The notes beneath the pieces were generated by a model that was not told where the DNA came from, searched no databases, and saw only the letters and a program-made list of their open reading frames with translations. DNA of 64,000 bases, taken from NCBI GenBank assembly GCA_040218145.1, contig JAVJQK010000122.1, forward strand, positions 62,001 to 126,000, written 5' to 3'. How positions within the stretch are numbered: the stretch's first letter is position 1; every line of letters begins with the position of its first letter. Position numbers and translations under genes: made by a program. Of the stretch, positions 31,545 to 59,174 are shown one piece after another. This stretch comes from Sandaracinaceae bacterium (GTDB lineage: Bacteria; Myxococcota_A; Polyangia; Polyangiales; Sandaracinaceae).

Positions 31545-33803
31545 ATCAAGACCTTCGGGAAATACCTCCTCGACGAGGAGATCGCGCGGGGCGGGATGTC
31601 GCGGGTCTTCCTCGCGCGCCTGCGCGGGCTCGGCGGCTTCGAGAAGCGGCTCGTGGTCAAGCAGGTCTTGCCCGAGCTGGCGAGCGACCCGCGCTTCGTC
31701 TCGATGTTCGTGACCGAAGCCAAGACGCTCGTGCAGATGAGCCACCCGCACATCGCGCCGGTCTACGAGCTGGGCGTGGTGGAGGGCGTCTACTTCCTCG
31801 CGATGGAGTACGTCGAGGGCGCGACGCTCTCCGAGATCCTCGAGCACGGCTCGCTCGCCCCCGGCCAGGTCGCCCACCTCGGCGTCGAGATCGCCGACGC
31901 GCTCCACTACGCGCACACCCGCTTCGACATCGTGCACCGCGACGTCACGCCGCGGAACGTGATCGTCGACTCCGCGGGCCACTCGCGCCTCCTGGACTTC
32001 GGCATCGCGGCGCCGGTCGAGGACGCAGAGGGGGAGCTGTTCGGCACGCCCGGCTATCTCTCGCCCGAGCAGCTCGCGGCGGGCGCGCTCGACGCTCGCG
32101 CGGACGTGTTCTCGCTCGGCGCGGTGCTCTACGAGGCGATCAGCGGCCGCCGCGCGTTCCCGGCCATGACGGTCGAGCAGGCGCGGGTCGCGCTCGAGAA
32201 GGACGCGATCTTCCAGGACGCCGACGACGCCCCGCCCGAGCTGCGCGCGATCGTGAGCAAGGCCGTCGAGCGCGATCCCGAGGCGCGCTACACGACCGCG
32301 CGCGAGCTCGGCCGAGCCCTGCGTGGCTGGCTCGCCTCCCATGCCCCCGAAGGCGTCGCGCCCGAGCTGGGCCTGCGCGCCGAGCGCGCCGAGGCGATGC
32401 GCGAGGCCCGCCTCTCGAACGGCGACTCGCTCCCGTCGATGCCCAGCGCGGCCCAGGTGAAGACCCTGGCCACGAGCCGCCTCCTCGACGACCTGCTCGA
32501 GACGCCGGCGGAGGACGCGGAGGAGATGGTGTCCGGCACGGTCCGGATCGCGGGGCGCGGCGAGGCGCCGTCGACCGCGAAGCTGGACCGGCGTGCGGAG
32601 AGCGCGGAGTCCTCGCGGCTGGGAGCGGGAACGGGAACGGCAGCGGGAGCGGGAGCGGCAGCGGAGGCGGCAGCGGGAACGGGAACGGGAACGGGAACGG
32701 GAACGGGAACGGGAACGGGAACGGGAACGGGAACGGGAGCGGGAGCGGGAGCGGGAACGGGAACGGGAACGGGAACGGGAACGGGAACGGCAGCGGGAAC
32801 GGAAGCGGGAGCGGGGGCGGGAGCGGGAGCGGGAGCGGGAGCGGGAGCGGGAGCGGGAGCGGGAACGGAAGCGGGAGCGGGGGCGGGAGCGGGAGCGGGA
32901 ACGGAAGCGGACGCGGCGGCGGACTCGGACGCGGCGGCGGACTCGGACGCGGCGGCGGAAGCGGACGCGGTGGCGGGCGCGGACTCGGACGCGGCAGCGG
33001 ACTCGGACGCGGCAGCGGACTCGGACGCGGACGCGGCGGCGGACTCGGACGCGGACGCGGCGGCGGAAGCGGACGCGGCGGCGGACTCGGATGCGGACGC
33101 GGCGGCGGACTCGGACGCGGCGGCGGACGCGGACGCGGCGGCGGACTCGGACGCGGCGGCGGAGGCGGACCCGGAAGCGCAAGGCGCGGCGGAGGCCGCA
33201 GCGACACGCAGCGACTCCGGCTCCGTCCCCCGGGTCACCCCTCCCAGCCGTCGCCCCCTGCCGGCTTGGCTCTTCGCTCTTGGCGGCCTGGCGTTCGGGA
33301 GCTTCGTCGCCTGGCTGGCGTGGCCGGACGTGCCGTCGCCTGGCCCTCCTCCCTTCGAGACCAACGCGGCCCCTCCAGCGCCGAGCGAGCCGGCCCCGAC
33401 GGACACCGCGCCGTCCGAGCCCACCGAGACCCAGCCCACCCAGCCCCAGCCCACCGAGCCCCAGCCCACCGAGACCCAGCCCACCGAGCCTCCCACGGAG
33501 CCCGAGGCGCCCATCCCCGCCGAGAACCAGCCCACTCAGGACCCGCCCGCCGAGCGCGCGCCGGCGCGGGCCACCCTCACCGTGAACGCCGCGCCGTGGG
33601 CGGAGGTGGTGCTCGACGGCCGGCCGCTGGGCAACACCCCGCAACGGAACGTGTCGATCCGCGCCGGCCGTCACACCATCGTGTTGCGGAACCCCGCGCT
33701 CGCGAACGGCGAGGTCCGGTCCACCTTCGAGGCCGAGAGCGGCGCCTCGCTCATGGTGATCGCGGACCTCAACGCGAGCCCGCCCACCGTGCGCGTGCGG
33801 TAG
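31545..33803 (+). CDS. Membrane Ser/Thr kinase with repeat-rich linker, start codon unclear
   Basis: About 752 codons. The kinase domain begins IKTFGKYLLDEEIARGGMSRVFLAR, with VVK (Lys39), HRDVTPRN (131-138) and DFG (151-153). After it (about 355-545) comes a linker built of G/T/A/E and then A/D/S repeats, a membrane segment (about 573-595, LFALGGLAFGSFVAWLAW), a Pro/Thr/Glu-rich stretch (TQPTEPQ repeats), and a PEGA-like domain (ATLTVNAAPWAEVVLDGRPLGNT). No ATG, GTG or TTG lies in frame near the start; the first family-like codons are GCC-ATC-AAG. The ATC at 31545 may be a rare start, or the start was lost by mutation or sequence error. Confidence 0.8.
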   Translation: MKTFGKYLLDEEIARGGMSRVFLARLRGLGGFEKRLVVKQVLPELASDPRFVSMFVTEAKTLVQMSHPHIAPVYELGVVEGVYFLAMEYVEGATLSEILEHGSLAPGQVAHLGVEIADALHYAHTRFDIVHRDVTPRNVIVDSAGHSRLLDFGIAAPVEDAEGELFGTPGYLSPEQLAAGALDARADVFSLGAVLYEAISGRRAFPAMTVEQARVALEKDAIFQDADDAPPELRAIVSKAVERDPEARYTTARELGRALRGWLASHAPEGVAPELGLRAERAEAMREARLSNGDSLPSMPSAAQVKTLATSRLLDDLLETPAEDAEEMVSGTVRIAGRGEAPSTAKLDRRAESAESSRLGAGTGTAAGAGAAAEAAAGTGTGTGTGTGTGTGTGTGTGAGAGAGTGTGTGTGTGTAAGTEAGAGAGAGAGAGAGAGAGAGTEAGAGAGAGAGTEADAAADSDAAADSDAAAEADAVAGADSDAAADSDAAADSDADAAADSDADAAAEADAAADSDADAAADSDAAADADAAADSDAAAEADPEAQGAAEAAATRSDSGSVPRVTPPSRRPLPAWLFALGGLAFGSFVAWLAWPDVPSPGPPPFETNAAPPAPSEPAPTDTAPSEPTETQPTQPQPTEPQPTETQPTEPPTEPEAPIPAENQPTQDPPAERAPARATLTVNAAPWAEVVLDGRPLGNTPQRNVSIRAGRHTIVLRNPALANGEVRSTFEAESGASLMVIADLNASPPTVRVR
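32621..33180 (+). repeat. Hexanucleotide repeat tract inside kinase linker
   Basis: From 32621 to about 32910 the DNA is almost entirely GGAACG and GGAGCG hexamers (Gly-Thr and Gly-Ala). It continues to about 33180 with GCGGACTCGGAC-type units (Ala-Asp-Ser-Asp). Both unit lengths are multiples of three, so slippage changes linker length without breaking the frame. Confidence 0.85.
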
Positions 33804-39212: not shown

Positions 39213-40433
39213 TCACATGGCGCCGGGCAGATACGGCTCGGGCACGACGATGATCGGATCGAGCGGGCCGGGGCCCTGCGGCTGGGCCGCGACGATGATC
39301 GCGGTCAGGGCGCCGGCGATCACCACGCCCAGGCCCGCCCAGAGGTACCAGCGCTCGAACCACTCGAGCTCGGGCGGCGGGGGCGCCTCGAAGGGGATCT
39401 CGGCCAGCCACGCGAGGGAGCGGTCGTGGGGCGCCGCGGAGGGAGCGACGCGCAGATCGACGGGCGCGTCCCCGGTGAAGCGGCGGGCCGACGCGCAACC
39501 CTCCGCCGTGCAGCGCATGGCCAGCGCGCGGTCGAGCGGGCCGCGCCCCGCCCACAGGAGCCAGACCTCGGGCGGCTCGGGCAGCGCGGCGAGGGCGGCG
39601 ACGAGCTCGTCCGAGGCACCGGCGCGCGCCGCGTCCGCCGCCCGACGCGCGGCGGCGAGCGTGTCGGTGGGAGACAGCTGGACCGTGACCGAAGGGCGCT
39701 CTCCCTCGAGCACCTGGACCACGCGCGCCCACGGTCGATGCCCCGGCGCCTCGACCCGCAGCACGTGCAGCCCGACGGGCACGTTGAGCGTGCGCGGCAG
39801 GCCCCCGAGCGAGCGATCGTCGATGGAGACCACCGCGCCGTCGGTGTCCGAGCGGACCTCGAAGCGCCCCCGCGGCCCGGTCACCGCCTCGCGACGGATC
39901 TGACGCGCGCGCTCGACGACCTCGGGGCGCGCCTCAGCGACCTGCACGTCACGTTGCGGATCGACGGACGCCGCGCGCCGCAGCGCTGCGCCGCTGAGGC
40001 CCTCCATGCCCGCCTGCGAGGCCGTGATGGCGATGGCGAGCTGGACCTCCGCGTACCAGTCGCTCATGCCCGGCACGTCGAGGTGCTGCTCGGCGAGGCG
40101 CTCGGCGCGGGTGAGGATGCCGAGGGCGTCGCGCTCGCGCAGGCTGGCCGTCGCGTGACGCGCGCGGACGAGCAGCGTCTCGATGAGCGAGATCGTCTCG
40201 AGCCTCTCGGGTGAGACCCGACCGACCGGCTCCCGCGCCCGCGCCCACTGCTCCAGCGTGGTCGCGCGCTCGAGCTCCCCCTCGACGCGGCGCTGCCAGC
40301 GACGCCAGGTCAGCTCCGGCGCGCCGTCGTCCACCACCACGACGGCGCTCTCTTGCGCCGACGCGGGACCCGGCCCCGCCACGAGCGAGAGGGTCACGAG
40401 CGAGAGGGTCACGAGCGGGAGGAGCGCACGCAT
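39213..40433 (-). CDS. PEGA-domain protein with C-terminal membrane anchor
   Basis: A 406-residue protein with a cleavable-looking signal peptide (LVTLSLVTLSLVAGPGPASAQ). An N-terminal helical region (about 40-170) resembling TPR-like repeats precedes a PEGA domain (GRFEVRSDTDGAVVSIDDRSLGG, then VGLHVLRVEAPGHRPW). A C-terminal membrane segment (WYLWAGLGVVIAGALTAIIVAA) and a short Pro tail end it. The signal peptide contains two identical 15-bp units (40381-40395 and 40396-40410). Such proteins are common near myxobacterial kinases. Function is probably envelope-related. Confidence 0.75.
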   Translation of the reverse strand: MRALLPLVTLSLVTLSLVAGPGPASAQESAVVVVDDGAPELTWRRWQRRVEGELERATTLEQWARAREPVGRVSPERLETISLIETLLVRARHATASLRERDALGILTRAERLAEQHLDVPGMSDWYAEVQLAIAITASQAGMEGLSGAALRRAASVDPQRDVQVAEARPEVVERARQIRREAVTGPRGRFEVRSDTDGAVVSIDDRSLGGLPRTLNVPVGLHVLRVEAPGHRPWARVVQVLEGERPSVTVQLSPTDTLAAARRAADAARAGASDELVAALAALPEPPEVWLLWAGRGPLDRALAMRCTAEGCASARRFTGDAPVDLRVAPSAAPHDRSLAWLAEIPFEAPPPPELEWFERWYLWAGLGVVIAGALTAIIVAAQPQGPGPLDPIIVVPEPYLPGAM

Positions 40434-40456: not shown

Positions 40457-41623
40457 TCAGGCGGCGCGCGCCGCCTTCGCCGCCCGCTCCAGGAGCGCCC
40501 GCGCGCGGTGGTGCCAGGTGTGCGTGGCCGCGACCCGCTCCCGGGCCGCCTGCGCCATCTCCTCGCGCGCCGGCTCATCCGAGAGCAGCGCCTCGAGCCG
40601 CGCCCTCGCGCCGCTCACATCGGTCAGCGAGAACGGCGCGTGGAGCTCTCCGAACGCCTCGGCCAGCCAGCGGTTGTCGTTGACGACGAGCGCGCTGCCG
40701 TTGGCGAGGGAGGCGAAGTAGCGCTCGCTCGCCACGTGACCGTGCACGGGCTGCACGCAGAGCGTCACCTTCGCGCGGGACACCATCTCCTCGTAGACGT
40801 AGTAGGGCACCGCCGGGCGCGTCACCCAGGCCGAGCCCGGGACGAGACGGTCCCAGCCGTCGCCCACCACCGTGAGCGGCAGGTCGGCCAGGTCACGCAT
40901 GACGGCGAGGCGGACCTTCGCCCGGACGAACCGGTTGATCTCGCCGAGCACCATCGGCTCGAGCCGTCGGATGCCCTCGTGGCCACCCACGCCCGCGGCC
41001 TCGCAGGTCTCGCGGAACACCTCGCGCAGCGGTCGGGTCAGATCCGCGACCCACGCCTCGCTGGCCGCGCCCATGAGCTTCGCCACCGCGGGACCGATGG
41101 ACGTCGGCCATCCGCGCGAGATGCCCTCCGGGTCGACGACGCTCCCCGCGAAGAAGACGTCGATGTCGCGATCCTCGCCGCGCACCCGAGGGAGCACGCG
41201 GCCCGCGAGCAGCATCGTCTCCGCCTCGGGGAGCTCCATCGCGCGCGCCTCTGCAGAGGAGCGCTCGTTCGTCCACAGCGTGCGCACGTGGGGCGCGCGG
41301 AGCTCCGCCGCCCAGCTGCGCTGGTAGTACGGCTCGTCGACCATCCACGTCGTCAGCGGGACGCGGCCGCCCCCGAGCGGTCTCCCGTCGGGTCCAGCCA
41401 GGCGCACTCCGTCGAGGTTGAAGGAGAGGACCAGGTCGGGCTCGAAGCGGGTGAGCGCGGCCGCGAACGTGGCGTCCGGTGGCCCCATCGCGAGGTCCAC
41501 GCAGACGGCGACCGCGCCCTCGTCCTCGAAGCCGAGCTTCATCGCGTCCGCGAAGCAACGCAGGTGATCGTAGTTGCAGGCGCCCTTGATCAGGATGACG
41601 CGCGGCGCTCTTCGTTCGGCCAT
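40457..41623 (-). CDS. CgeB-like glycosyltransferase (GT-B)
   Basis: A 388-residue protein resembling the CgeB/YkvP spore-coat glycosyltransferases. The N-terminal Rossmann half starts RVILIKGACNYDH and the C-terminal half has YYVYEEMVSRAKVTLCVQPVHGHVASERYFASLANGSALVVND, which is the nucleotide-sugar binding region, followed by helices with TWHHRARALLE. It probably adds a sugar to a surface glycan or protein. It overlaps the GT61 gene upstream by 34 bp, the last gene of the five-gene cluster. Confidence 0.82.
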   Translation of the reverse strand: MAERRAPRVILIKGACNYDHLRCFADAMKLGFEDEGAVAVCVDLAMGPPDATFAAALTRFEPDLVLSFNLDGVRLAGPDGRPLGGGRVPLTTWMVDEPYYQRSWAAELRAPHVRTLWTNERSSAEARAMELPEAETMLLAGRVLPRVRGEDRDIDVFFAGSVVDPEGISRGWPTSIGPAVAKLMGAASEAWVADLTRPLREVFRETCEAAGVGGHEGIRRLEPMVLGEINRFVRAKVRLAVMRDLADLPLTVVGDGWDRLVPGSAWVTRPAVPYYVYEEMVSRAKVTLCVQPVHGHVASERYFASLANGSALVVNDNRWLAEAFGELHAPFSLTDVSGARARLEALLSDEPAREEMAQAARERVAATHTWHHRARALLERAAKAARAA

Positions 41624-43395
41624 GAGGGCTCCTCGGATTCGATGAGATCGAGCAGGTGCGCTTCGGGGACCACGAAGTCGCGGTGGAGGGGGTCGGGGTG
41701 ACTCCCGGGGATGGGGGTCCCGCGAGCGAAGATCATCTCGGCGCCCACGATCGGGGCGAGGCCCGCGAAGTAGTGGGGAGGCACGCTCTCCCCCCAGAGG
41801 CCGATCATGCGCGCACCCTCGCGCATGAAGACGGCGTTGGTCATGCCCGCGCCGACCGTGACCACGATCGTCTCGGCGTTGTGAACGAGCGCGACCTGCT
41901 CGGAGAAGCTCAGCGCGACCGGATCGATCAGCGCGAAGCCGCGCGCCTCGAGGAGCGCCGCCAGCGCCGCCTCGTTGACGCAGCCGCGCCGGACGCTGTT
42001 CGGGCGGGTCAGCATCACGCGCTTCGGGCTCGGAGCGCTCGTGTCGACGCGCTCGAGCACCGCCTCACGGAGCCGGCGCACGGTCTCGGGCGCGATCATG
42101 CGCTTCGAGAGCGGCACGCGCGCGTCGTCATGCATGATCCCGCCGAGGGAGGGGAGGACCAGCCTCCCCACCGCGACGCGCGACTCCTTCGTCAGGGCCA
42201 CGACCTCGCGCCCGGGCGCGAGCAGCTCGAAGGCCTCACGGCACTGGCGCGGCATGCGTTCGTTGACCAGATGCGGGAGCGCCGCGTCGCCGCCCTCCGG
42301 GTCGAGGAAGAGCACCTTGGGGAGGTGCTCGAGCATCCAGTGAAAGTAGTTGGACGCCGCGCGGCCCCCGATCAGCACCGCCGCGTCGAGGCGCGCCGTG
42401 ATCGCGGAGGGCGCGAAGGTGAGCGCGCGCCCCTCGGGGTCGACCCAGCCGCTGTACTCGGGGATGTTGTCCTGGCGCAGCGAAGGAGACGCGGCCTCGT
42501 CGTAGACCACCAGGTCATCGCCTCGCGCGACCACCCCGCTCTCGCCGAGCACCTGCGCGTCGCGCACGTGGGCGACGAAGAGGGGCGGGGCCCGCTCGTC
42601 GGTCGGACCGTCGATTCGGAACGGCGGGTGGTAGTTGGGCGACTCCACCACCACGGGCACGGACGGCGCGATGGAGACCACCCGCTCGGCGACCTCCTCC
42701 ACGCGCCTGACGTGCAGCATCACCGGCTGGCGGCCATGCAGCCGACTCGCGGCCGCCCCGTAGGCGTGCACCATGGAGCTGTGCCACTCGCTGAGCGCCT
42801 CTCCGGCCTCGGCCAGCCGTCCCATCGCCATCAGCGTCCGTCCCATGCGCTCCACGGCGTCTACGGCCATGGGAGCCTGCGGGAACCGCGCCCGCATCGC
42901 CGCGATGGCGTCGAGCGCCTCCCGGTGCCGCCCCGCCTCTCGGAGGTTGTCGGCGAGGTCCATCCACGCGCGCCCATCGAACGGAGCCGCCGCGAGCGCC
43001 GCCTGCAGGGCCGCCACCGCGTCGTCGTAGCGGCTGGCTTCATAGGCCGCCTTCGCCTCGACGAGCGCGGGCGCGGCGAGGCGGGCACCCTCGGCCCTGG
43101 CGCGCGATGCGGTGGCCTCGTCGTCGTGGCCGAGCGCCGCGGCCAGGCGCGCGCGAGAGAGCGCCACCTCCGGGTCGCGCGGGTCGAAGTCGCACGCCGC
43201 CCGCCACATCGCGAGCGCGAGGTCCGCGCAGCCCGCCGCCTCGAGTCGGTCCGCGAGCTCCATGCAGATCAGCTTGCGGTTGTCGTTGTTCGCCACGAGC
43301 TGGCGAAGCAAGGCGGTGCCGCGCGCCTCCCCCGCGGCGATCGCAGCGACCGTCTCGACGACGCGGCGTTGCAGGATCGGGGTCAGTCTTCCCAT
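41590..43395 (-). CDS. TPR-GT61 (DUF563) glycosyltransferase fusion
   Basis: A 601-residue fusion. The first 210 residues carry TPR-like helical pairs (LAMWRAACDFDPRDPEVALSRARLAAALG; YEASRYDDAVAALQAALAAAPFDGRAWMDLADNLREAGR). The C-terminal part has DUF563/GT61 features: GGRAASNYFHWMLEHLPKVLFL, KRVMLTRPN, and VALVHNAETIVVTVGAGMTNAVFM. It is probably an O-linked or capsule-type glycosyltransferase with the TPR part as an acceptor-binding module. It lies 3 bp downstream of the GNAT gene. Confidence 0.85.
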   Translation of the reverse strand: MGRLTPILQRRVVETVAAIAAGEARGTALLRQLVANNDNRKLICMELADRLEAAGCADLALAMWRAACDFDPRDPEVALSRARLAAALGHDDEATASRARAEGARLAAPALVEAKAAYEASRYDDAVAALQAALAAAPFDGRAWMDLADNLREAGRHREALDAIAAMRARFPQAPMAVDAVERMGRTLMAMGRLAEAGEALSEWHSSMVHAYGAAASRLHGRQPVMLHVRRVEEVAERVVSIAPSVPVVVESPNYHPPFRIDGPTDERAPPLFVAHVRDAQVLGESGVVARGDDLVVYDEAASPSLRQDNIPEYSGWVDPEGRALTFAPSAITARLDAAVLIGGRAASNYFHWMLEHLPKVLFLDPEGGDAALPHLVNERMPRQCREAFELLAPGREVVALTKESRVAVGRLVLPSLGGIMHDDARVPLSKRMIAPETVRRLREAVLERVDTSAPSPKRVMLTRPNSVRRGCVNEAALAALLEARGFALIDPVALSFSEQVALVHNAETIVVTVGAGMTNAVFMREGARMIGLWGESVPPHYFAGLAPIVGAEMIFARGTPIPGSHPDPLHRDFVVPEAHLLDLIESEEPSWPNEERRASS

Positions 43396-43398
43396 GGC

Positions 43399-44373
43399 TC
43401 AGGTCTCCTCGGCCGGAGTCGTCAGGGTCCACGCGCAGTGGTGCTGCACGACCGCTCCGCCGCCCCACTTCGACTTGAAGCCGTGGAGCGGGGCGTTCAG
43501 CGTCCGGCCCCCTTCTTCGGTCGAGGCGCCGAACGAGAACGTGCGCGCGCCCTCCCGCTGGGCGTGCACGATCGCCCTCTCGATCACGAGATCCAGCGCG
43601 CGCAGCTCGCGGCCCTCCTCCGAGGCGGCGAGGTACTGCGTGTGGAAGACGCCTTCGCGGTGCCGGAGCAGCCAGCACGCCGCGGCCGCGACGCCGCTCG
43701 GCGCGCGCGCGACCCAGAGCGACTGCGCGCCGCCGAGCCGGCGCCGCAGATCGAGCAGCGCCTCGAGATCGTGCACCGGCCGCGCGCCGTGTCGGCGGCG
43801 GAGGGTGTCCGAGAGCAGCGCGTGCATCTCGGCGTACGCGTCGGGCGTGTCCTCGACCGCCACCGTCACGCCGAGTCTCTCCGCGCGGTTGGCGCTGGCG
43901 CGGTCCTTCCGCTTCCGATCGCGGTCCAGGCTCACCACCGACCACAGGTCCATGCGCTCGACGGTGCCGCCGAGCCGAAACAGGGCCGACAGCTCGGGCT
44001 CGTCGGGCTGCACCGAGAGATGCGCGGGCGAGAGCTTCAGCTCCAGGCGGCGCGCGCCCGCGCCTCGATAGAGCTCGCCGAGGGCGGACAGCACCTCGAA
44101 GGTCTCCTCCGCGGCGCCGATCTTGGGTATGAGCGGCCCGCCGAAGGTCGAGCCGGGGTGGCTGACGACCCGGTCGTCCAGGCGCGCGGCCGGGAAGATC
44201 GCGACCGGCTTGCCGTCGCGCTCGAGCCAGACCGAGCAGTCCTCGAAGCGAGCCCCGTGGTAGCCGAGGAACCGACGCGTGTGCAGCAACGTCCCCTTGG
44301 GGCAGCGCTCGACGAAGGCGTCCCAGCGATCGTCGTCGTCGGGGTGATGAGGTCGTGGAACGAGCATGGCCAC
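43399..44373 (-). CDS. GNAT/FemAB-like acyltransferase
   Basis: A 324-residue protein of the FemAB-like (peptidoglycan or exopolysaccharide) acyltransferase type. It has the paired-GNAT pattern: GTLLHTRRFLGYHG, then AIFPAARLDDRVVSHPGSTFGG early, and VARAPSGVAAAACWLLRHREGVFHTQYLAASEEGRELRALDLVIERAI late, which matches the acetyl/aminoacyl-CoA pocket. It is likely to transfer an acyl or aminoacyl group to a sugar or peptide. An ATG two codons after the GTG start at 44373 is an alternative start. Confidence 0.75.
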   Translation of the reverse strand: MAMLVPRPHHPDDDDRWDAFVERCPKGTLLHTRRFLGYHGARFEDCSVWLERDGKPVAIFPAARLDDRVVSHPGSTFGGPLIPKIGAAEETFEVLSALGELYRGAGARRLELKLSPAHLSVQPDEPELSALFRLGGTVERMDLWSVVSLDRDRKRKDRASANRAERLGVTVAVEDTPDAYAEMHALLSDTLRRRHGARPVHDLEALLDLRRRLGGAQSLWVARAPSGVAAAACWLLRHREGVFHTQYLAASEEGRELRALDLVIERAIVHAQREGARTFSFGASTEEGGRTLNAPLHGFKSKWGGGAVVQHHCAWTLTTPAEET

Positions 44374-44444
44374 GCGCGTGCTCGATGCACGCTTCGAGCC
44401 ATGGGCGAGACGCTAGATTATGGCCTCTCAGCGAGGGACTGGTG

Positions 44445-45221
44445 TCAGTGCGTCGACACCGGATCGTCGGAGACCCGAGCCTCCACGAAGATCTCCGCCG
44501 CCAGCTCCGGCAGCTCCTCGCCGAGCGAGGCGAGCCCACGCAGCACCGCGTCCCCCAGCAGCTCTTCGACCCCCTCCATCTGTGCGTTGGTGAAAGGCTT
44601 GAGCGTGTGCCCACCGGCGCGGAGCACCTCGAAGCCGGCGCCGCACACCTCCTCGCGAAGGGAGGCGGCGTCGTAGACCCGGGCCTGGGCGAGCGCGACG
44701 TTTCGCTGGCTCATCGCGTGCTCGTCTTCGATGAGCCCCATCGCGCGGGCGAGCCGCCGGTGGAGCGAGTACGCGTTCGGGACGCTCACGTAGAGCCGGC
44801 CCGCGGGCGCGAGGAGGCGCCGCGCGGCACCTAGCATGGACTGGGCGTCCGGGATCTCGTGAAGGAGGCTGTCGATGATCACCACGTCGGCGGGGCCCTC
44901 GAGGGCGGCCGCGATCTCCGCCTCGGCGCGCTCGAAGTAGTCCTGGACGACCCGCAGCTGCGGGGCCTCCGCGGAGCGCGCGCGGGCCACCTCCGCGAAG
45001 CGGGCGGCGGGCTCCGCCACGACCCAGCGCTCCACGAGCTCCGGCGCGACGCGATCGAAGAGCAGGCTCGAGCCACAGCCGACCTCGACCACCCGGGCCG
45101 GGGCGACAGCAGCCAGCCATCGCGCCGTGAAGTCGCCCCGCGCCTCCACGAGGCGCGCCTCGTAGCCGTAGTCGCGCGCGTAGTCTTCCTGGTAGCGCGC
45201 CAGACGCGCGTCGCGGCTCAC
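44445..45221 (-). CDS. SAM-dependent class I methyltransferase
   Basis: A 258-residue methyltransferase with motif I VVEVGCGSSLLF, an acidic residue at the end of the second strand (VVAEPAARF), motif III-like ADVVIIDSLLHEIPD, and post-core YVSVPNAYSLHRRLARAMG. The C-terminal half resembles the UbiE/type-11 or sugar methyltransferases. Its ATG overlaps the FAD-enzyme stop by four bases (ATGA), so both proteins likely act in the same pathway. The target is unknown, probably a surface sugar. Confidence 0.85.
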   Translation of the reverse strand: MSRDARLARYQEDYARDYGYEARLVEARGDFTARWLAAVAPARVVEVGCGSSLLFDRVAPELVERWVVAEPAARFAEVARARSAEAPQLRVVQDYFERAEAEIAAALEGPADVVIIDSLLHEIPDAQSMLGAARRLLAPAGRLYVSVPNAYSLHRRLARAMGLIEDEHAMSQRNVALAQARVYDAASLREEVCGAGFEVLRAGGHTLKPFTNAQMEGVEELLGDAVLRGLASLGEELPELAAEIFVEARVSDDPVSTH

Positions 45222-46597
45222 GCGGCCGTCCGCGCGGAGGCGTCCTCGAGCAGCTCGTTCACCGCCCGGTCACACGCGAGGAGGATCATGTTGAGGAACG
45301 CGGCGTCTTCGGAGCGCCCGACGAGGGCGGCGTTCGTGAGCCCGGCGAGGGCCGCGCGACAGGCCCGGTCACCCGCCGCCACCTCGGGGGTGAGGATGGG
45401 GAAGACGCGCGAGAACCGCTCGACGTGGCTCCACGTCGGGCGCGCCGTCTCGGGCACGAGGCCGGCCGAGCGGAGCTCGCCCCACACGCGCTCGGTGATG
45501 GCGGCCTCGTCGAGCGCCTCGTCGGGGCCGAGCACGACCTCGACGGACATCGCGCGGCGCTCGAGCGGCGCGCAGTCGGGGCGGACCTGGCGTGTGAAGA
45601 ACACACGGTGGATCGCGTCGCCGGGGTCGTAGAAGGTCGCGTAGTGGAGGTCGGTCGAGGGCTCCTCCGAGGCGACGAGGTGCACGACCGCCAGGTCGCG
45701 GAACGCCGGCCGTGCGCTCGGCACCGAGATCCCCGCGGCGCGGCAGAGCAGCGCAGGAGGGCGCGACCAGAACAGGACGTCGCACGGCAGCGCGGTCCCG
45801 TCGTCCAGCTCGACCGCGGTCACGCGGTCGCCGTGGCGCTCCACCGACGCGACGCTGGCGCCGAAGCGGATCTCCCCGCCGCTCGCCTCGAGGTCCCGGC
45901 AGCTCTCCTCGATCCAGCGCCCCATGGCGCCGCGCGCCGGATGCAGGAAACCTCGCCCCGGCACGTCGAGGCTCCGGCTCGATGGGTGCGCCATCCGCCC
46001 ACGAAGCTCGGGGTGGGCGTCGCGAAGGCCGCGCGTCGTCGGCTCGTCGGCCACGATCACGCGCCCCGGGACGAAGAAGCGCTCGGCCTTGGGCGCGAGC
46101 GCGTCGAGCGAGCAGCCGAAGACCTTGCGCAGGAACGGCTCGAAGACCCGCTCGACGACCGTCGCGCCGAAGCGACCCCGGAGCCAGGCGTCGACGTGAT
46201 CGGCCGCGGGCTCCTCTTCGGCCGCCAGCAGCTCGCGGACCACGGCGTCGGCCACCTCGTCGCCCAGAAGGCGGACGTCGGGGCACTGATTTTCACGGTT
46301 GAGCCGCCCGCCGAGCACGTGCCCCTCGTTGGGGAAGCCGTCGATCCGGTTCCACTCGATGTCCAGGCAGCCGTAGATCGCGTGGTCGAGGCGCTCGTCG
46401 CCCGTCGCCATGCCCATCCGGATCCCTCGGTCGAAGTCGACGCGGCGCCCGTCCACGACGGCCTCGTAGGGCATCCACGCCCCGCCCGGTCCGGGGGCGG
46501 GCTCGATGACGGTGACCTCCGCGCCTCGACGCGCGGCGAGTCGCGCCGCGGCCAGCCCGGACGCACCCGCGCCCATCACCACTGCTCTCTGCTTCAT
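45218..46597 (-). CDS. FAD-dependent oxidoreductase (UDP-galactopyranose-mutase-like)
   Basis: A 459-residue flavoprotein. The dinucleotide-binding motif VVMGAGASGLAAARLAARRG starts at residue 5. The second conserved block is GPGGAWMPYEAVVDG, followed by FFVPGRVIVADEPTT and late FAD-contact residues (GLTNAALVGRSEDAAFLN). The pattern is between amine oxidase/protoporphyrinogen-oxidase and UGM-type enzymes. First gene of the envelope-glycan cluster, so a sugar-nucleotide substrate is plausible. The ATG at 46597 is chosen over 46732, whose extra 45 residues do not fit the family. Confidence 0.75.
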   Translation of the reverse strand: MKQRAVVMGAGASGLAAARLAARRGAEVTVIEPAPGPGGAWMPYEAVVDGRRVDFDRGIRMGMATGDERLDHAIYGCLDIEWNRIDGFPNEGHVLGGRLNRENQCPDVRLLGDEVADAVVRELLAAEEEPAADHVDAWLRGRFGATVVERVFEPFLRKVFGCSLDALAPKAERFFVPGRVIVADEPTTRGLRDAHPELRGRMAHPSSRSLDVPGRGFLHPARGAMGRWIEESCRDLEASGGEIRFGASVASVERHGDRVTAVELDDGTALPCDVLFWSRPPALLCRAAGISVPSARPAFRDLAVVHLVASEEPSTDLHYATFYDPGDAIHRVFFTRQVRPDCAPLERRAMSVEVVLGPDEALDEAAITERVWGELRSAGLVPETARPTWSHVERFSRVFPILTPEVAAGDRACRAALAGLTNAALVGRSEDAAFLNMILLACDRAVNELLEDASARTAA

Positions 46598-46721: not shown

Positions 46722-47399
46722 GTGAAAGACAAAGAACACTATCTCGGGCCGGTCCTGATCGGTGGCGTCGTCGCGGGTGTGCTCAGCGCCATCCCGATCA
46801 TCAACTACTGCAATCTGATCTTCTGCATGTGGATGCTGCTGGGCGCGGGCCTCGCCGTGAAGCTCATCCAGGACAAGACCAACACGGTCGACGCCAAGGA
46901 GGGCGCCCTCATCGGCGTGCTCACCGGGCTCGTGACCGGCGCGATCTTCGGTGTCCTCTACGTGCTGATGTTCCTGCTCTTCGGGGCGGCGATGATCCCG
47001 GGCGCCGCAGCCGGGGAGCTCGAGGGCGCGGCCGGCGGAACGCTGATGATGTTCATCATCCTCGGCGGCAGCTGCATCTTCTCCTTCGTCGTCTACGGAG
47101 GCTTCGGCGCGCTCGGCGGCCTGCTCGCGTCGATGATCTTCCCGCCGAAGAACGGCGATCAGGGCGGCGGCGGCGGCTTCGCCCCGGCTCCGAGCGCGCC
47201 TGGCTTCGGGCAGCCTCCGGGCGGTCCGGGCGCTCCCCCGAGCGGCGGCGGCTTCGGTCAGCCCCCGAGCGGCGGCGGCGGCTTCGGTCAGCCTCCGAGC
47301 GGTGGCGGCGGTCAGCCTCCGGGCGGCGGCGGCTTCGGCCAGCCCCCGGGCGGTGGCGGCGGTCAGCCCCCGGGCGGCGGCTCGCCCTGGGGTCAGTGA
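46722..47399 (+). CDS. Multi-pass membrane protein with GFGQPP repeat tail
   Basis: A 225-residue protein with GTG start and AGGAG upstream. Four hydrophobic segments (about 9-27, 29-48, 62-92, 107-140) are followed by a Gly/Pro-rich tail of about 80 residues with repeats of GGGFGQPP and GGGQPPGGG. It looks like a small membrane scaffold with an unstructured C-terminal tail. Its TGA overlaps the GTG of the next gene by four bases. Confidence 0.7.
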   Translation: MKDKEHYLGPVLIGGVVAGVLSAIPIINYCNLIFCMWMLLGAGLAVKLIQDKTNTVDAKEGALIGVLTGLVTGAIFGVLYVLMFLLFGAAMIPGAAAGELEGAAGGTLMMFIILGGSCIFSFVVYGGFGALGGLLASMIFPPKNGDQGGGGGFAPAPSAPGFGQPPGGPGAPPSGGGFGQPPSGGGGFGQPPSGGGGQPPGGGGFGQPPGGGGGQPPGGGSPWGQ

Positions 47400-47854
47400 A
47401 GCCGAGCCTTCGCCCGCTCTTCGTCGCCGCCGGCTTCGCGTTCGTCGCGGGCCTGGCGGCGGCGCCGCTGTGGTGGCCTCACGGGCCGCTCGCCGCGATG
47501 GCGCGCGTGGTGTTCGCGGGGCTCTGCCATCAGATCCCCGAGCGCACCTTCGCCCACGACGGGCACGCCATGGCGGTATGCGCGCGCTGCGCGGGGATCT
47601 ACCTCGGGCTGGCCATCGGCCCGCTCGTCGCCCTCGTGTGGCGTGTGGACCCGCGACGGCGCGCGCCGTGGCTCCTCGGAGCGCTGCCCATCACGGCCCA
47701 GGTCGTCGCCGCGTGGGTCTGGCCCTCGCTCGACGTCGCCTGGCTTCGCGCGGCGACCGGCCTCTGGGCCGGCGTCTTCGGCGGGTTCTTGCTGGCCTGC
47801 GCCGTCTCGACCGCGAGCGCGCCCGCGCGGACCCCGCTCGGCTCGGCGAGCTGA
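47396..47854 (+). CDS. DUF2085 membrane protein
   Basis: A 152-residue protein with GTG start overlapping the previous stop (GTGA). Hydrophobic segments at about 8-26, 67-85 and 96-140 surround the DUF2085 hallmark CHQIPERTFAHDGHAMAVCARCAGIYLG (about 44-71), with conserved Cys/His probably binding a metal. It is probably an inner-membrane protein. The role is unknown; it may be a co-factor or anchor for its partner encoded upstream. Confidence 0.82.
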   Translation: MKPSLRPLFVAAGFAFVAGLAAAPLWWPHGPLAAMARVVFAGLCHQIPERTFAHDGHAMAVCARCAGIYLGLAIGPLVALVWRVDPRRRAPWLLGALPITAQVVAAWVWPSLDVAWLRAATGLWAGVFGGFLLACAVSTASAPARTPLGSAS

Positions 47855-47899: not shown

Positions 47900-48421
47900 A
47901 TGGGCATGAGGCGAGATCTGAGCCCTGCCGAGCTGTTCGACCGCGAGTACCCCGCCGCCCGCAAGGCGCCGCACCTCGCGCCGGTGCCCTCGTACGCTCG
48001 CCCCCTCGACGTCCGTCGCGCGATGGAGGTCGACCTGAGCGTCATCCGCGATCAGCGCGGTGACCTCGTGGTGGCCGAGCTGGGCAAGCACCTCCCGTTC
48101 GTCGCGCGCCGCATGTACTCGCTCGTGCGCGTCCCCGAGGGCGAGGCGCGCGGCGGCCACGCGCACAAGGAGCTCGAGCAGCTCCTCTTCGTGCTCCACG
48201 GCGCGCTCGACCTCGTGCTCGACGACGGCGTGACCAAGCAGCGCGTGCGGCTCGACGACCCCGAGAAGGCCATCTACCTGCGCCCGATGGTGTGGCGCGA
48301 GCTCGAGCACTTCGCCCCCGGCACCGTCTGCGTCGTGCTCGCCTCCGAGGTCTACGACGAGAGCGACTACCTCCGCTCGTACGACGCTTACCGCGACGAG
48401 CTGGCCGCGCTCGGCTGGTGA
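47900..48421 (+). CDS. FdtA/QdtA-type dTDP-sugar 3,4-ketoisomerase
   Basis: A 173-residue cupin (the ATG at 47900 or 47906). The conserved block reads RGGHAHKELEQLLFVLHGALDLVLDDG, then AIYLRPMVWRELEHFAPGTVCVVLASEVYDESDYLRSYDAY. These are signatures of dTDP-4-oxo-6-deoxyglucose 3,4-ketoisomerases, the first step to dTDP-3-amino-3,6-dideoxy-hexoses. The natural partner aminotransferase (FdtB/QdtB type) is encoded 9.7 kb away at 58080. Confidence 0.85.
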   Translation: MGMRRDLSPAELFDREYPAARKAPHLAPVPSYARPLDVRRAMEVDLSVIRDQRGDLVVAELGKHLPFVARRMYSLVRVPEGEARGGHAHKELEQLLFVLHGALDLVLDDGVTKQRVRLDDPEKAIYLRPMVWRELEHFAPGTVCVVLASEVYDESDYLRSYDAYRDELAALGW

Positions 48422-50295: not shown

Positions 50296-50991
50296 TCAGG
50301 CCGGCTGCGGGAGCTTCGGCAGCTCGCGGCCGATCAAGCGGTACATGAGCTGGGCGTAGAGCGAAGTGCCGCTCGGGCGCACCCGCGCGCGGTCGGCCGG
50401 AGAGATCCCGAGACGAAGGCGCACCTCTTCGAGAGGGAGCTCCATCCACTCCTCGAGCGGAGCGGCCACGATGAGCTCCGCCGCGCGACCCATCTCGATG
50501 CCGAGCACGACGTTGTGCCAGGCCGCCGCCGCCTGCGACGGGGACATGAAGGCGACGAGCCACCTGGCGAAGCGCACGTAGCGCTCGCTCAGATACCCGG
50601 TGTCCTGGGCCGCGGTGAAGGCGGCCACACCGAGCTCGCCCGCGATGCCCGTGTCGAAGCCCGCGAGCAGGTGATGCAGGTCATGGGTGAGCGTGTAGCG
50701 AATGGTGAAGGGGTCATCCCGGAACCGCGAAAGGACCCGATCGCTCAGCTCGAAGTGCTCGAGCCCGTTGTCGTCGAGGAAGCGCGCGTACTCACGCCCC
50801 AAGGTGCCCTCGGGGAGCTGCCGGAGGCTGGAGAGTGAGACGTCCAGGATGGGCGTTGGCAACCGGCGAATGGCGGCCTGCACGCGCTCGGGCGCGTCGG
50901 ACTGCGCGCCCAGCTTCAACGCCGCGACGTCTCCGAGCGAAGCGTCGCCCAGCGCCGCGGTCATGACCTCCTTCAGCTCACTCCAGTTCAT
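50296..50991 (-). CDS. Coq4-like protein
   Basis: A 231-residue helical protein with the Coq4 pattern: PEGTLGREYARFLDDNGLE, then THDLHHLLAGFDTGIAGELGV (a metal-binding HDxHH motif with a distal Glu). Coq4 works in ubiquinone synthesis, decarboxylating and hydroxylating or binding an intermediate. It is divergent from a TetR gene and converges with the KaiC gene. No other ubiquinone gene is seen here. Confidence 0.82.
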   Translation of the reverse strand: MNWSELKEVMTAALGDASLGDVAALKLGAQSDAPERVQAAIRRLPTPILDVSLSSLRQLPEGTLGREYARFLDDNGLEHFELSDRVLSRFRDDPFTIRYTLTHDLHHLLAGFDTGIAGELGVAAFTAAQDTGYLSERYVRFARWLVAFMSPSQAAAAWHNVVLGIEMGRAAELIVAAPLEEWMELPLEEVRLRLGISPADRARVRPSGTSLYAQLMYRLIGRELPKLPQPA

Positions 50992-51070
50992 GGCGTTCCC
51001 TTCTCCGACGACCCTCGTGGCTCGCTGAAGCCAGCCTAACCTTAGTCACGGATAAAGCAAGAATTAGCCA

Positions 51071-51087
51071 CCATTCCGACCGAATGG
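51071..51087. promoter_or_regulatory. Palindrome between coq4-like and tetR genes
   Basis: CCATTC-CGACC-GAATGG is a perfect 6-bp inverted repeat with a 5-nt centre, midway in the 197-bp divergent region. A TetR-family protein encoded on one side suggests it is that regulator's operator. A second related pattern (GATAAAG) occurs twice in the region but not as a clear palindrome. Confidence 0.5.
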
Positions 51088-51188
51088 GTCTTGTTGGAGA
51101 GGGTACACTCACTCCGATGCGGCGAGGATCGATGATCAGGTTGATTCGACGATAAAGTTAGGTAGCTTCCCCACCCTGGAGGAAGACG

Positions 51189-51788
51189 ATGCCGCGCAAG
51201 CGCCCCGAACAGGTGGCGGAGACCCGTCGTGTATTTCTGCGAAGCGCCGCCAAGTGCTTTGCGGCGGCGGGGTTCGAGAAGGCGACGCTGAAGGACATCG
51301 CTTCGGAGGCGGGCATGACCGTCCCGACTCTCTACAGCTACTTCGCGAGCAAACAGGATCTCGTCCAAGCGCTGATCGATCAGCTGATCGCGGAGATGTC
51401 CGACCTGTTCGACGTCCTGCTCCCACGCGGCCTGACGTTCGCGCAGAAGCTCGAGCTGCTCCTCGCCCATCAGCTGCGCTGGTCCGAAGAGCGGCGTGAC
51501 GCGTTCCAGTTCTTGATGCGGCTGGAGAGGCGCGACGTGGAAGAGGAAACGTCCACGCATCGACAGCACCTGGATCGCCTCGAGGCGTGGCTGACCGAGC
51601 ACGCGGACCCCGAGGAGCTCCGCGTCGAGCCGCGCACGACGGCCCTCGTCATCGACGCGCTCGGGAACGCCTGGTTTCGACGCTGGCTCGAGGACGGCGC
51701 GCGCCCCGGCGAGCTCGTGCGCCGGGCCCCCGAGTACGCCGACCTCGTGTTGCACGGCGTCGGCACGGGCTCGCTGGTGGAGGAGTGA
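51189..51788 (+). CDS. TetR-family transcriptional regulator
   Basis: A 199-residue regulator. The HTH region is LRSAAKCFAAAGFEKATLKDIA then SEAGMTVPTLYSYFASKQDLVQALI, the TetR signature. The rest is helical with many charged residues. A strong ribosome site (GGAGGAAG) precedes the ATG. Being divergent from the Coq4-like gene with a palindrome between them, it probably regulates that gene and itself. Confidence 0.92.
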   Translation: MPRKRPEQVAETRRVFLRSAAKCFAAAGFEKATLKDIASEAGMTVPTLYSYFASKQDLVQALIDQLIAEMSDLFDVLLPRGLTFAQKLELLLAHQLRWSEERRDAFQFLMRLERRDVEEETSTHRQHLDRLEAWLTEHADPEELRVEPRTTALVIDALGNAWFRRWLEDGARPGELVRRAPEYADLVLHGVGTGSLVEE

Positions 51789-51809: not shown

Positions 51810-52739
51810 TCACATCGGGGGATCGGGCGGTCCCGCGTCACCTACGCCCGCGTCCGGCCAGCCCGCGTCGGGTCTCGGGGCGGGGCGCCTCGCGCACACG
51901 CGCGCTTCGCAGGTCAGACCATCTTCACAGATGCCTTCGCCCGCGCCGCAGGCCTCTCCCTCCGCGAGCCGCTGCACCGTGCCAGGCACGATGGAGCGGC
52001 GGACCCGGAGTTCGCTTCCCTGCCGGCTGAGGGAGATGACCGCAGGCTCGTGGGCGAGCTCGTCGCAGGACGCACGCGTGAGCGGATCGAAGCAGCACAC
52101 GTCGAACTGTCCACCCCTCACAGCGAGCGAGAACTCATAGATGGTGTGAGGCTCGGGGTTCCCTGGGCTCCGTCCGAAGCCGTACGCGCCGGACGCGGAC
52201 AGCGGCGCGGGCGCTCCGTCTCGCGTGGCCTCGACCCGACCGTCGCCGTAGACGCGGAGATCGATCCACTCCTCCCCGATGCGCACCTGGAAGTAGTTGA
52301 AGCAGTCGCGCCGGATGCCCTCCGAGTTCGCGCGCCAGTCGTTGAGGAAGTAGAGCCGACCGTCGCGGTAGTCGACGTAGACGTCGGTGAAGAGCCCCTC
52401 CAGCCGAACGGCGCCCGCCCACTCGTCGCCGGTGAACCGCCCGTCGACCGTCACGGGGGCGTCGCTGCGCGGCTGCGCCTCCCAGAGACCCGCGCCGCGC
52501 GTCGGGTCACAGCGCCCGGAGTCATCGGCCTGACAGTCGGGCGCGAGGCCGGGCACACACGGACACGACCTGGTCGTCTCGGTGACGCACTGACGCGTCT
52601 CGTCATCGCACACCAGGCGGGAGCTCTCCCGGGGCGCCGTCCCGTCCGGACAGGTTTCTTCCGTGCATGCCGAGGAGAGCGCCGCGAGCAGCAAAGTGAG
52701 GCATGCGGCGCGCGCCGCGTCGATTCCGAGCTTCGTCAT
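51810..52739 (-). CDS. Lipoprotein with carbohydrate-binding-like module
   Basis: A 309-residue lipoprotein (lipobox LAALSSAC). The N-terminal Cys-rich region (CPDGTAPRESSRLVC, CPCVPGLAPDC) is followed by a beta-sandwich reminiscent of CBM9/DOMON-type modules (VTVDGRFTGDEWAGAVRLEG, VYVDYRDGRLYFLNDW, CFNYFQVRIGEEWIDLRVYG). A C-terminal Cys patch (CGAGEGICEDGLTC) and Asp/Pro tail end it. It is last in the sigma-factor operon. Confidence 0.7.
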   Translation of the reverse strand: MTKLGIDAARAACLTLLLAALSSACTEETCPDGTAPRESSRLVCDDETRQCVTETTRSCPCVPGLAPDCQADDSGRCDPTRGAGLWEAQPRSDAPVTVDGRFTGDEWAGAVRLEGLFTDVYVDYRDGRLYFLNDWRANSEGIRRDCFNYFQVRIGEEWIDLRVYGDGRVEATRDGAPAPLSASGAYGFGRSPGNPEPHTIYEFSLAVRGGQFDVCCFDPLTRASCDELAHEPAVISLSRQGSELRVRRSIVPGTVQRLAEGEACGAGEGICEDGLTCEARVCARRPAPRPDAGWPDAGVGDAGPPDPPM

Positions 52740-52755
52740 GAGTCACTCCAAGGCA

Positions 52756-54024
52756 TCAGGGGAGCGCCGCTCCCGAAACGAGTCGCACGGGTCCGGCCGT
52801 GCCCGCGAACACGGCGTCTACGGCGCCGTCGCCCTCCAGATCCCCGAGCGCGACCACACCACCGAGACGCTCCCCGCGGGAGCTGCCGATCCAGGCGTCA
52901 TGGACCGTGAGATCGGAGGCGGAGAGGAGGTGGACGCGCCCCTGGCAGACCTCGGGATCGACGCATGCGGCGTCGGCGCACCCGAGCAGCACGTCGGCCC
53001 CGCGCGCGCCGGTCACGCACACACGCGACGCGGTGTCGAATCGCGCCGTCTCGCGCGGCGTGGGTTCGAGGGGTCGCAAGCGGTAGGCGCGGAGCTGGTC
53101 CGGGGCGCCGAGCTGCGGCCAGAGCACCGTGAGCGCGCCCCCCAACCCCACCCGGTGCGCGTTGGCGTGACGCGGCGTGAGGCGCGCGAGCGCGTCCGTC
53201 ACCTCGGCCATCGGCGGCCCCTCGAGCGGCAGCACGAGCGGCGCCGCGATGGGTCCCGCGTGGATCGCGAGCCGCCCCGCGTCTGCGACGCCGACGTCGT
53301 CGTGACCGTCGCCGTCGACGTCCCCGAGCCCGAAGAGCGCCGCTCCGGAGAGATCGAACTGCGGGGCGAGGCGCGCGTCGGCGAGCGCGCCGCCGCTCCA
53401 GCGGATCCACGCGACACTCCCCGTGCGATCTTCTATCGACAGCTCCTCGGCGCCGTTTCCGTCCAGGTCGCCGAGGACGCGGACCCTCGCGCCGAACGAG
53501 CCTTCGCCTTCTGCCCGAAGCGCAGGCAGCGCGTCCAGCGCGCTCGGCGCGCCGCGGCCGGGGTCGCCGCGCAGGAGATGGACGACGCCGTCGCCCTCGA
53601 ACGCCAGCGCCACCGCGAGGTCGGACACGCCGTCGGCGTCGAGGTCTCCCGCCGCGAGGCTCCCCTCCACGTAGACCGGAACGCTGACGCCGTCGCGGGA
53701 GGTGCGAGAGTCGAACGGCGTCCCCACGAGCGCGAGGTCGAACCCGTCGTCGAGCTCAGCGGGGAGCCGAGCGCGCCCATAGACCAGACGCAGGCGCGGC
53801 AGCACGCGAGGCTGCGCGCGCTCCGCGACCAGCTCGAGCACCGCGAGGTCGTCCCGTCCGTCTCCGTCGAGGTCGGCCGCGACCACGGCGAGCACGACGG
53901 AGGACGGAGAGGGGTCGACGCCGGCGTCCGCGAGGGGGACCGCCGCGTCGTCGCCGCTCGTGGCGACGTGCGAGTCGTAGATGCAGCCCGACAGGAGCAG
54001 CAGCGCCGCGAGCGAGCGCGTCAT
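52756..54024 (-). CDS. FG-GAP repeat lipoprotein
   Basis: A 422-residue lipoprotein (lipobox LLLSGC). Four or more FG-GAP-type calcium loops are seen: DLDGDGRDDLAV, DLDADGVSDLAV, DLDGNGAEELS, DVDGDGHDDVGV, and DLEGDGAVDAVF near the end. It forms a beta-propeller, probably surface exposed. Its ATG overlaps the stop of the anti-sigma-like gene by four bases, so it is co-translated in the sigma-factor operon. Confidence 0.85.
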   Translation of the reverse strand: MTRSLAALLLLSGCIYDSHVATSGDDAAVPLADAGVDPSPSSVVLAVVAADLDGDGRDDLAVLELVAERAQPRVLPRLRLVYGRARLPAELDDGFDLALVGTPFDSRTSRDGVSVPVYVEGSLAAGDLDADGVSDLAVALAFEGDGVVHLLRGDPGRGAPSALDALPALRAEGEGSFGARVRVLGDLDGNGAEELSIEDRTGSVAWIRWSGGALADARLAPQFDLSGAALFGLGDVDGDGHDDVGVADAGRLAIHAGPIAAPLVLPLEGPPMAEVTDALARLTPRHANAHRVGLGGALTVLWPQLGAPDQLRAYRLRPLEPTPRETARFDTASRVCVTGARGADVLLGCADAACVDPEVCQGRVHLLSASDLTVHDAWIGSSRGERLGGVVALGDLEGDGAVDAVFAGTAGPVRLVSGAALP

Positions 54025-55291: not shown

Positions 55292-55322
55292 CGTGAGTAG
55301 CCATGGACGCTCGCGGCCCGGA

Positions 55323-58079: not shown

Positions 58080-59174
58080 TCACAGCGCGGCGCGGAGCGC
58101 GCGCACGACCTCTTCCTGCTGTGCTTCGGTGATCTCCGGGAACATCGGCAAGGACAGCATCGTCTCCGCCGCCTCCTCCGCGACCGGGAAGTCGCCCCGC
58201 GCGTGACCCAGCTTGGCGAAGGCCCCTTGCAGGTGACAGGGCACGGGGTAGTGCACGCCGACGCCGACGCCCGCGGCGCGCATCGCCTCCATCACGCGAT
58301 CGCGCTCGGGGACGCGCACGACGTAGAGGTGCCACACCGGCTCGGTGCCCGCCGGCGTGACGGGCCGCCGCACGCCGTCGACGTCGGCGAGGAGCCGGTC
58401 GTAGCGCTCGGCCGCCGCGCGCCGCGCCCGGGTCCACGCGGAGAGGTGCTGGAGCTTCACGCCGAGGATCGCGGCCTGGATGGGATCGAGGCGGGAATTG
58501 AAGCCCATCTTCGGGTGGTGATACTTCACCTCGCTCCCGTAGTTGCGGAGCGCGCGCACCTCCGCCGCGAGCGCGTCGTCGTCGGTCATCACCGCGCCGC
58601 CGTCCCCGTACGCGCCGAGGTTCTTGCCCGGGTAGAAGCTCGTGGCCGCGATGTCTCCGAAGGTGCCTGCGACCTTGCCCTCGCGGCGCGCGCCGTGCGC
58701 CTGGGCGACGTCCTCCACCAGCGCGAGATCGCGCGCCTGGGCGAGCTCCGCCAGCCTGTTCATGGGCGCGACCTGCCCGAACATGTGCACCGGCACGAGG
58801 GCCGAGGTCTCCGCGCCGATCGCGTCGTCGAGCTTGGCGGGGTCGAGCAGGAGCGTGCCCGGATCGACGTCGACGAACACGGGGCGGAGGCCCGCGCGGA
58901 CGGCGGCGAGCGGCGTCGCGACGAAGGTGTTCGCGGGCATGACGACCTCGCCGCGCAGCCCCAGCGCGCGGAAGGCCAGCTCGAGCGCGTCGGTGCCGTT
59001 GCCCACTCCGACGACGTGCTTCACCTCCGAGAAGCGCGCGAAGTCGCGCTCGAACGCCTCGAGGTGCGGACCCAGCACGAAGGACGTGTCGTCGAGCACG
59101 CGCGCGATCGCGGCGTCTACGTCGGCGCGGATCGAAGCGAGCTGCGCCTTCAGGTCGACGAAGGGGACGGCCAT
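58080..59174 (-). CDS. DegT/DnrJ/EryC1 sugar aminotransferase (FdtB/QdtB type)
   Basis: A 364-residue PLP-dependent aminotransferase. MAVPFVDLKAQLASIRADVDAAI and VGVGNGTDALELAFRALG are family signatures. The PLP-binding Lys lies in ATSFYPGKNLGAYGDGGAV. The pattern is of the FdtB/QdtB/WecE group, which transaminates dTDP-3-oxo-6-deoxy-hexoses. It probably partners the FdtA-type isomerase encoded at 47900. It is followed 27 bp downstream by the homocysteine methyltransferase. Confidence 0.88.
   Translation of the reverse strand: MAVPFVDLKAQLASIRADVDAAIARVLDDTSFVLGPHLEAFERDFARFSEVKHVVGVGNGTDALELAFRALGLRGEVVMPANTFVATPLAAVRAGLRPVFVDVDPGTLLLDPAKLDDAIGAETSALVPVHMFGQVAPMNRLAELAQARDLALVEDVAQAHGARREGKVAGTFGDIAATSFYPGKNLGAYGDGGAVMTDDDALAAEVRALRNYGSEVKYHHPKMGFNSRLDPIQAAILGVKLQHLSAWTRARRAAAERYDRLLADVDGVRRPVTPAGTEPVWHLYVVRVPERDRVMEAMRAAGVGVGVHYPVPCHLQGAFAKLGHARGDFPVAEEAAETMLSLPMFPEITEAQQEEVVRALRAAL

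Follow-up and report, generated by a model that had tools for sequence, protein, structure and literature searches.

Five genes for the putative assembly of a modified glycan are co-clustered in two genera of the Sandaracinaceae, and within one species the block they form has been replaced and rearranged between conserved flanks. The block lies in the window, by which we mean the whole stretch of 64,000 nucleotides that was analysed (GC about 72%), taken from a genome of 11.06 Mb. The cassette and the neighbouring genes that bear on it are the following.

45218..46597, minus strand: FAD-dependent oxidoreductase (FAD), 459 aa, first gene of the cassette (Pfam NAD_binding_8, 9.3e-11)
44445..45221, minus strand: SAM-dependent methyltransferase (MT), 258 aa (Pfam Methyltransf_23, 2.6e-13)
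43399..44373, minus strand: FemAB/GNAT-like acyltransferase (FemAB), 324 aa (Pfam Acetyltransf_6, 8.8e-12)
41590..43395, minus strand: TPR-GT61 fusion glycosyltransferase, 601 aa (Pfam GT61, 3.7e-21; TPR_16, 4.8e-10)
40457..41623, minus strand: CgeB-like glycosyltransferase (CgeB), 388 aa (Pfam Glyco_trans_1_2, 4.7e-18)
39213..40433, minus strand: PEGA-domain protein (Pfam), conserved flank on the CgeB side, 98% in the second genome of the species
46722-47399, plus strand: small gene without a Pfam match over the cut-off, in the FAD-side flank, which is conserved but shows elevated divergence here
47396-47854, plus strand: DUF2085 gene (Pfam), in the same conserved flank, likewise with elevated divergence
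47900..48421, plus strand: FdtA isomerase gene (144.6 bits), 98% in the second genome of the species
58080..59174, minus strand: DegT-family sugar aminotransferase, QdtB/FdtB-like, a possible pathway partner

Open reading frames and Pfam matches confirmed the five genes in the order given by the original prediction, all on the minus strand, together with its overlaps (4 bp between FAD and MT, 34 bp between TPR-GT61 and CgeB) and its small gaps (71 bp between MT and FemAB, 3 bp between FemAB and TPR-GT61). The FAD start was placed at 46597, where the homologues begin, the longest open reading frame opening at 46732; at the other end, the PEGA gene starts 23 bp beyond CgeB. Two of the names are loose, as "CgeB-like" denotes a match to the broad Glyco_trans_1_2 family, and "FemAB-like" combines Acetyltransf_6 with a match to the XrtA/PEP-CTERM FemAB model (TIGR03019) that falls far below its cut-off (49.2 versus 260.35 bits). 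A 92-nt tRNA-Pro reported by ARAGORN at 41678-41769 (plus strand), antisense within the GT61 gene, is probably a false positive.

The species-level comparison comprised two genomes, the window's own (G000) and G394, a draft of 720 contigs that is 84% complete and is the sole other genome of the genus available. At control loci, identity between the two was 99.3% (16.0 kb) and 99.7% (2.2 kb); in the outer flanks of the block it was 98.2% (3.0 kb) and 99.3% (2.4 kb). Between these flanks, G394 has all five genes, rearranged and across two contigs. In the orientation of the window, the first part reads PEGA (minus), CgeB (minus), FAD (plus) and MT (plus), with the contig break inside MT, which is therefore split over both contigs; the second part reads FemAB (plus), gene 46722 (plus), DUF2085 (plus), GT61 (minus), FdtA (plus), RR (plus) and KaiC (plus). 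Since each contig has both conserved flank and divergent cassette genes, a binning error was ruled out as the explanation.

Protein identity between the window and G394 was 52% for FAD, 58% for MT (N-terminal 177 aa), 54% for FemAB, 59% for GT61 and 69% for CgeB. At four-fold degenerate sites, the five cassette genes were 46-57% identical, compared with 84-100% for 14 flanking genes, and the corresponding range between the window and G002, which represents another genus of the same family, was 47-58%. With 43.5% expected from base composition alone, the four-fold sites of the cassette are near saturation, and the two versions within the species are as divergent as between genera. Identity drops within about 100 bp at either edge of the cassette, and the nearest flank genes are more divergent than most of the outer ones (four-fold sites: DUF2085, 84%; gene 46722, 90%; PEGA, 92%), as would follow from recombination of imported DNA within the flanks. 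Synonymous saturation beside flanks of 98-99% identity would not be produced by selection on the proteins, so we infer that, in one lineage or the other, recombination exchanged the cassette for a different version. Given the same chromosomal site, conserved flanks and highly divergent content in the two genomes, the block appears to be an exchanged cassette that varies between strains, the pattern that a surface-glycan locus would be expected to show. No long or near-perfect repeats were found at the cassette edges, and a low-complexity run lies inside gene 46722-47399.

Other observations on the two strains concern positions elsewhere in the window. Positions 51812-56358 correspond to an insertion or deletion of about 4.5 kb, the flanking matches being nearly adjacent on L055, on which positions 50312-51452 likewise have no match. 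The low-complexity repeats at positions 32800-33110 can be aligned in many registers with one end of a G394 contig, where an Asp/Ala-rich reading frame lies.

The cluster is conserved outside the window's strain, as all five genes occur in both G002 and G394. A search for the five-gene order in other genomes, as the original prediction had proposed, thus recovered the gene set in these two; the order itself was not found elsewhere. In G002, the genes share one locus as two divergent units, GT61-CgeB and FAD-MT-FemAB, the latter with 4-bp overlaps. Clustering of relatives of all five in G002, and on two contigs in G394, argues against a chance arrangement. Another genome of the order, G050, carries relatives of FemAB, MT, CgeB and FdtA. 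The searches scored only part of the first-look candidates of most genomes, which weakens their absences: TPR-GT61 gave a strong match only in its own genome and G002 among 56 genomes (own included), plus a weak GT61-only match in G014; FAD homologues were found in 3 of 377 phylum-sample genomes (own, G002 with two copies, and G336); and of the 115 genomes of the order, four (own, G394, G002 and G050) had a match to CgeB and the same four to FemAB. Among mobile elements, no homologue was found by searching phages with GT61 or plasmids with FAD and CgeB. A plasmid search with the GT61 part returned 12 records, with query coverage of at most about half among the records listed, and the one plasmid GT61 protein scanned, from three plasmid regions viewed, had no TPR match. 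In one scan of genome contigs, the same part of the protein found a single, weakly matching locus (23% identity).

Two further loci were encountered in these searches. The window's genome contains a second, partial MT-FemAB copy on another contig (L052:9108-10453, C39), in which only the 3' part of MT remains, in two frames, while its FemAB is open and 92.5% identical to that of the window; the FemAB search of the 84%-complete G394 found one copy. The G336 homologue of FAD (L013:9104-10540) is 29% identical and lies amid genes resembling by eye a nonulosonic-acid locus, of which Pfam confirmed Epimerase_2 and ATP-grasp only.

Identities suggest that single modules of the cassette were exchanged between genera. 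FAD, MT and FemAB of the window resemble their G002 counterparts (64%; MT over its N-terminal 177 aa) more than those of G394 (52-58%), although G394 is of the same species. GT61 and CgeB show the reverse, with 59 and 69% identity to G394 against 44 and 54% to G002; CgeB is 34% identical to that of G050. Tree tests backed this for CgeB, for which the window grouped with G394 and the other two trees had p-AU values of 0.014 each, and were borderline for FAD, for which window plus G002 was preferred and window plus G394 was just not rejected (p-AU 0.054). They did not back it for MT, which leaned to window plus G002 without significance, or for FemAB, which slightly preferred window plus G394.

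The TPR-GT61 protein belongs to Glycosyltransferase family 61 by its domain, which matches over the full length of the profile (1-137 of 137; 76.3 bits versus a cut-off of 27), and glycosyl transfer is predicted accordingly by family. TPR matches fall within residues 59-176 and GT61 within 350-531 of the 601 residues, and the layout of an N-terminal TPR part followed by a C-terminal transferase is found in the window, G002 and G394 copies. The fusion had been called unusual, which held within the surveyed phylum sample: GT61 was found in 13 of 377 genomes with 17 matches (all candidates scored in the 33 genomes listed), and TPR was present in 2 of the 11 matches scanned, both from this cluster, most of the scans outside it covering the open frames of loci that extend about 1.5 kb from the match. 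In the open-access literature, work linking GT61/DUF563 with tetratricopeptides concerned, by title, plant root hairs, an alga and a diatom, with none on bacteria, and nothing was found on GT61 in myxobacteria. Structure models of two window proteins, each predicted in isolation, were poor (mean pLDDT 39.7 and 41.5).

TPR-GT61, whose TPR part is a module that commonly binds proteins, is probably protein-directed. Flagellin was initially favoured as the target, with a FlmG-like TPR-GT61 recognising it via the TPR part and adding the cassette sugar: flagellin genes are present in G000, G394 and G002, FlmG binds flagellin through its TPR-containing part in the portion of that study available (PMC7591256), and an acylated Fuc3N glycan is described on Clostridioides difficile flagellin in the corresponding excerpts (PMC5207245, PMC5207246). 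Between the window and G394, however, the TPR parts of the two GT61 proteins share only 49% identity (GT parts, 68.5%; the TPR part diverges more in the other two pairs as well), whereas the two tandem flagellins are protein-identical in G000 and G394. In addition, the flagellins are preceded, at a distance of about 5.5 kb upstream, by a gene of PF01973, the Maf transferase family, and may thus have their own transferase. Flagellin was found as well in three genomes (G003, G007 and G008) in which the searches with GT61, CgeB and FemAB gave no match. The identical flagellins and the nearby PF01973 gene weakened this candidate, and both flagellin as the acceptor and the flagellin-glycosylation reading as a whole are unlikely on these comparisons.

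For the sugar itself, the genes around the cassette make a 3-amino-3,6-dideoxyhexose the candidate. The window FdtA matches the solved FdtA 2pa7 (7.7e-30), lies 1.3 kb from FAD in the window and adjoins GT61 in G394; within the family, FdtA was found in two of nine genomes, G000 and G002, the same two with a TPR-GT61 search match. A second FAD homologue of G002 (about 45% identical; L012:9172-11369) adjoins FdtA, which suggests a functional link between the flavoenzyme and the isomerase. The DegT aminotransferase, 9.7 kb from the window FdtA, is 52% identical to the FdtB-like protein of G050, its best solved relatives being 2oga and 7b0d, followed by QdtB 3frk (1e-87) and also WbpE. The genome has one RmlB over the cut-off (480.9 versus 365.1 bits). 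In G050, a same-strand run comprises CgeB-like, RmlB-like (Epimerase), RmlA-like (NTP_transferase), FdtA and FdtB-like genes, then the acyltransferase genes (hexapeptide acyltransferase and FemAB), MT and one further gene, with no FAD or GT61 homologue in the run. All three FemAB-like plasmid matches have an FdtB-like aminotransferase within about 3 kb, and two of the three also FdtA (Ruegeria and Prevotella with both, Devosia with FdtB-like).

These neighbourhoods bear on two further readings. Tailoring enzymes commonly include flavoenzymes, methyltransferases, acyltransferases and glycosyltransferases, so the block might be a small biosynthetic cluster whose product is a small molecule bearing glycosyl, acyl and methyl groups; the FAD protein matches carotenoid desaturase models, although far under their cut-off (51.7 versus 580 bits), and a solved-structure search with it gave three short matches only. 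We consider this very improbable, as the genes scanned, those of the block and its near flanks, include no core scaffold enzyme, and the FemAB relatives sit in dTDP-amino-sugar loci. Decoration of a lipopolysaccharide or capsule side branch, in which the acceptor of both transferases would be lipid-linked or a polysaccharide, with the TPR part serving complex assembly, is a possibility we entertain tentatively: the Devosia FemAB homologue adjoins an O-antigen translocase, and O-antigen loci often carry FdtA/FdtB and differ between strains, but scanning genes of the block and its near flanks revealed no flippase, polymerase or membrane transferase.

A modified surface sugar or glycoprotein, as originally predicted, is still the best reading of the sequence, to which we add three points that the prediction had missed: the strain-level replacement, the nearby FdtA and FdtB-like genes, and the TPR part as the most divergent portion. 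In its specific form, a strain-variable surface-glycan cassette making an N-acylated, methylated amino-deoxy sugar that is placed by the CgeB-like and TPR-GT61 enzymes, we give it an even chance. The genome, through RmlB, would supply dTDP-4-keto-6-deoxyglucose, which FdtA and the FdtB-like aminotransferase would convert to a dTDP-3-amino-3,6-dideoxyhexose. The FemAB-like enzyme would N-acylate the amino group, the methyltransferase would methylate the sugar and the flavoenzyme may oxidise or isomerise it, the last being tentative chemistry. The CgeB-like and TPR-GT61 transferases would then assemble the glycan, with the TPR part probably binding a protein acceptor in the cytoplasm, and the variation would likely serve as a defence of the cell surface against phage or as a marker of kin. 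Against this count the lack of an aminotransferase or RmlA/RmlB in the cassette itself and the position of FdtA in the conserved flank rather than the variable part, which may accordingly comprise the decorations and transfer and not the core sugar. The distant DegT gene could serve another pathway, and none of the genes seen in the block encodes an export protein, a flippase or an anchor.

More speculatively, and in our view rather unlikely, TPR-GT61 could be the founding member of a new class of cytoplasmic protein O-glycosyltransferases, with the TPR part picking the protein and the neighbouring cassette setting the sugar, for kin recognition or phage escape. A fast-changing TPR part and a swappable cassette would then, with the same low likelihood, allow near-identical strains to put different glycans on their proteins, whether these are the same proteins in each strain or different ones.

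The O-antigen, capsule and flagellin islands of pathogens are familiar examples of glycan cassettes that are swapped while their flanks stay conserved. Here it occurs in a large genome of environmental type, in a same-species pair that is about 99% identical at control loci and has cassette versions as distant as between genera. Strain-variable glycan loci are thus known already, and what is new is the gene combination. If TPR-GT61 modifies proteins, GT61 would join the TPR-guided transferases (GT41-type OGT, FlmG), and the natural variants would offer a ready test of how TPR sets the target.

Among known systems, Neisseria pgl is a membrane, lipid-carrier pathway, and no membrane or lipid-carrier genes were seen here. 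It resembles the present case in the between-strain glycan diversity of protein glycosylation, as far as the excerpt describes it (PMC6959607). The Geobacillus flagellin glycosylation islands, in the sections at hand, vary between strains, show evidence of horizontal acquisition and share with this cassette the strain variability, the methyltransferases and, in one strain, FdtA plus FdtB; they differ in lying at the flagellin locus with GT2/GT4 transferases, whereas our block and flagellin are on different contigs (PMC5109656). Closer in chemistry is C. difficile type B, whose flagellin carries Fuc3N with an N-linked sulfopeptide and whose locus, in the part described, has FdtB-like and FemAB-like genes and no FdtA homologue (PMC5207245, PMC5207246). 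The likeness extends to an FdtB-like enzyme, a FemAB-like acyltransferase candidate, a methyltransferase domain, glycosyltransferases and an N-acylated 3-amino-3,6-dideoxy sugar as the product, which is proposed here; the differences are the flagellin target, the lack of FdtA and, within the described part, of GT61 or a flavoenzyme (PMC5207245, PMC5207246). By analogy, that glycan may serve as a chemical precedent for the proposed FemAB-like role. In architecture, the soluble, cytoplasmic FlmG of Caulobacter crescentus likewise joins a TPR-containing N-terminal part to a C-terminal glycosyltransferase, according to the excerpted account (PMC7591256); it is likened by layout and not by family, the domain here being GT61, with flagellin an unlikely acceptor and pseudaminic acid not established as the sugar. 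Finally, a locus on the Ruegeria sp. TM1040 megaplasmid (NC_008043.1; L058:3432-10424) encodes a TPR-GT41 OGT-like protein, a hexapeptide acyltransferase, a FemAB-like protein, GT2, FdtB-like and FdtA. It thus unites FemAB-like, FdtA and FdtB-like genes with a TPR-bearing glycosyltransferase, although of family GT41 instead of GT61 and with no flavoenzyme or CgeB-like match in the stretch examined, and the comparison is suggestive of Fdt sugar chemistry having been paired twice with a TPR-bearing transferase, each time of a different family.
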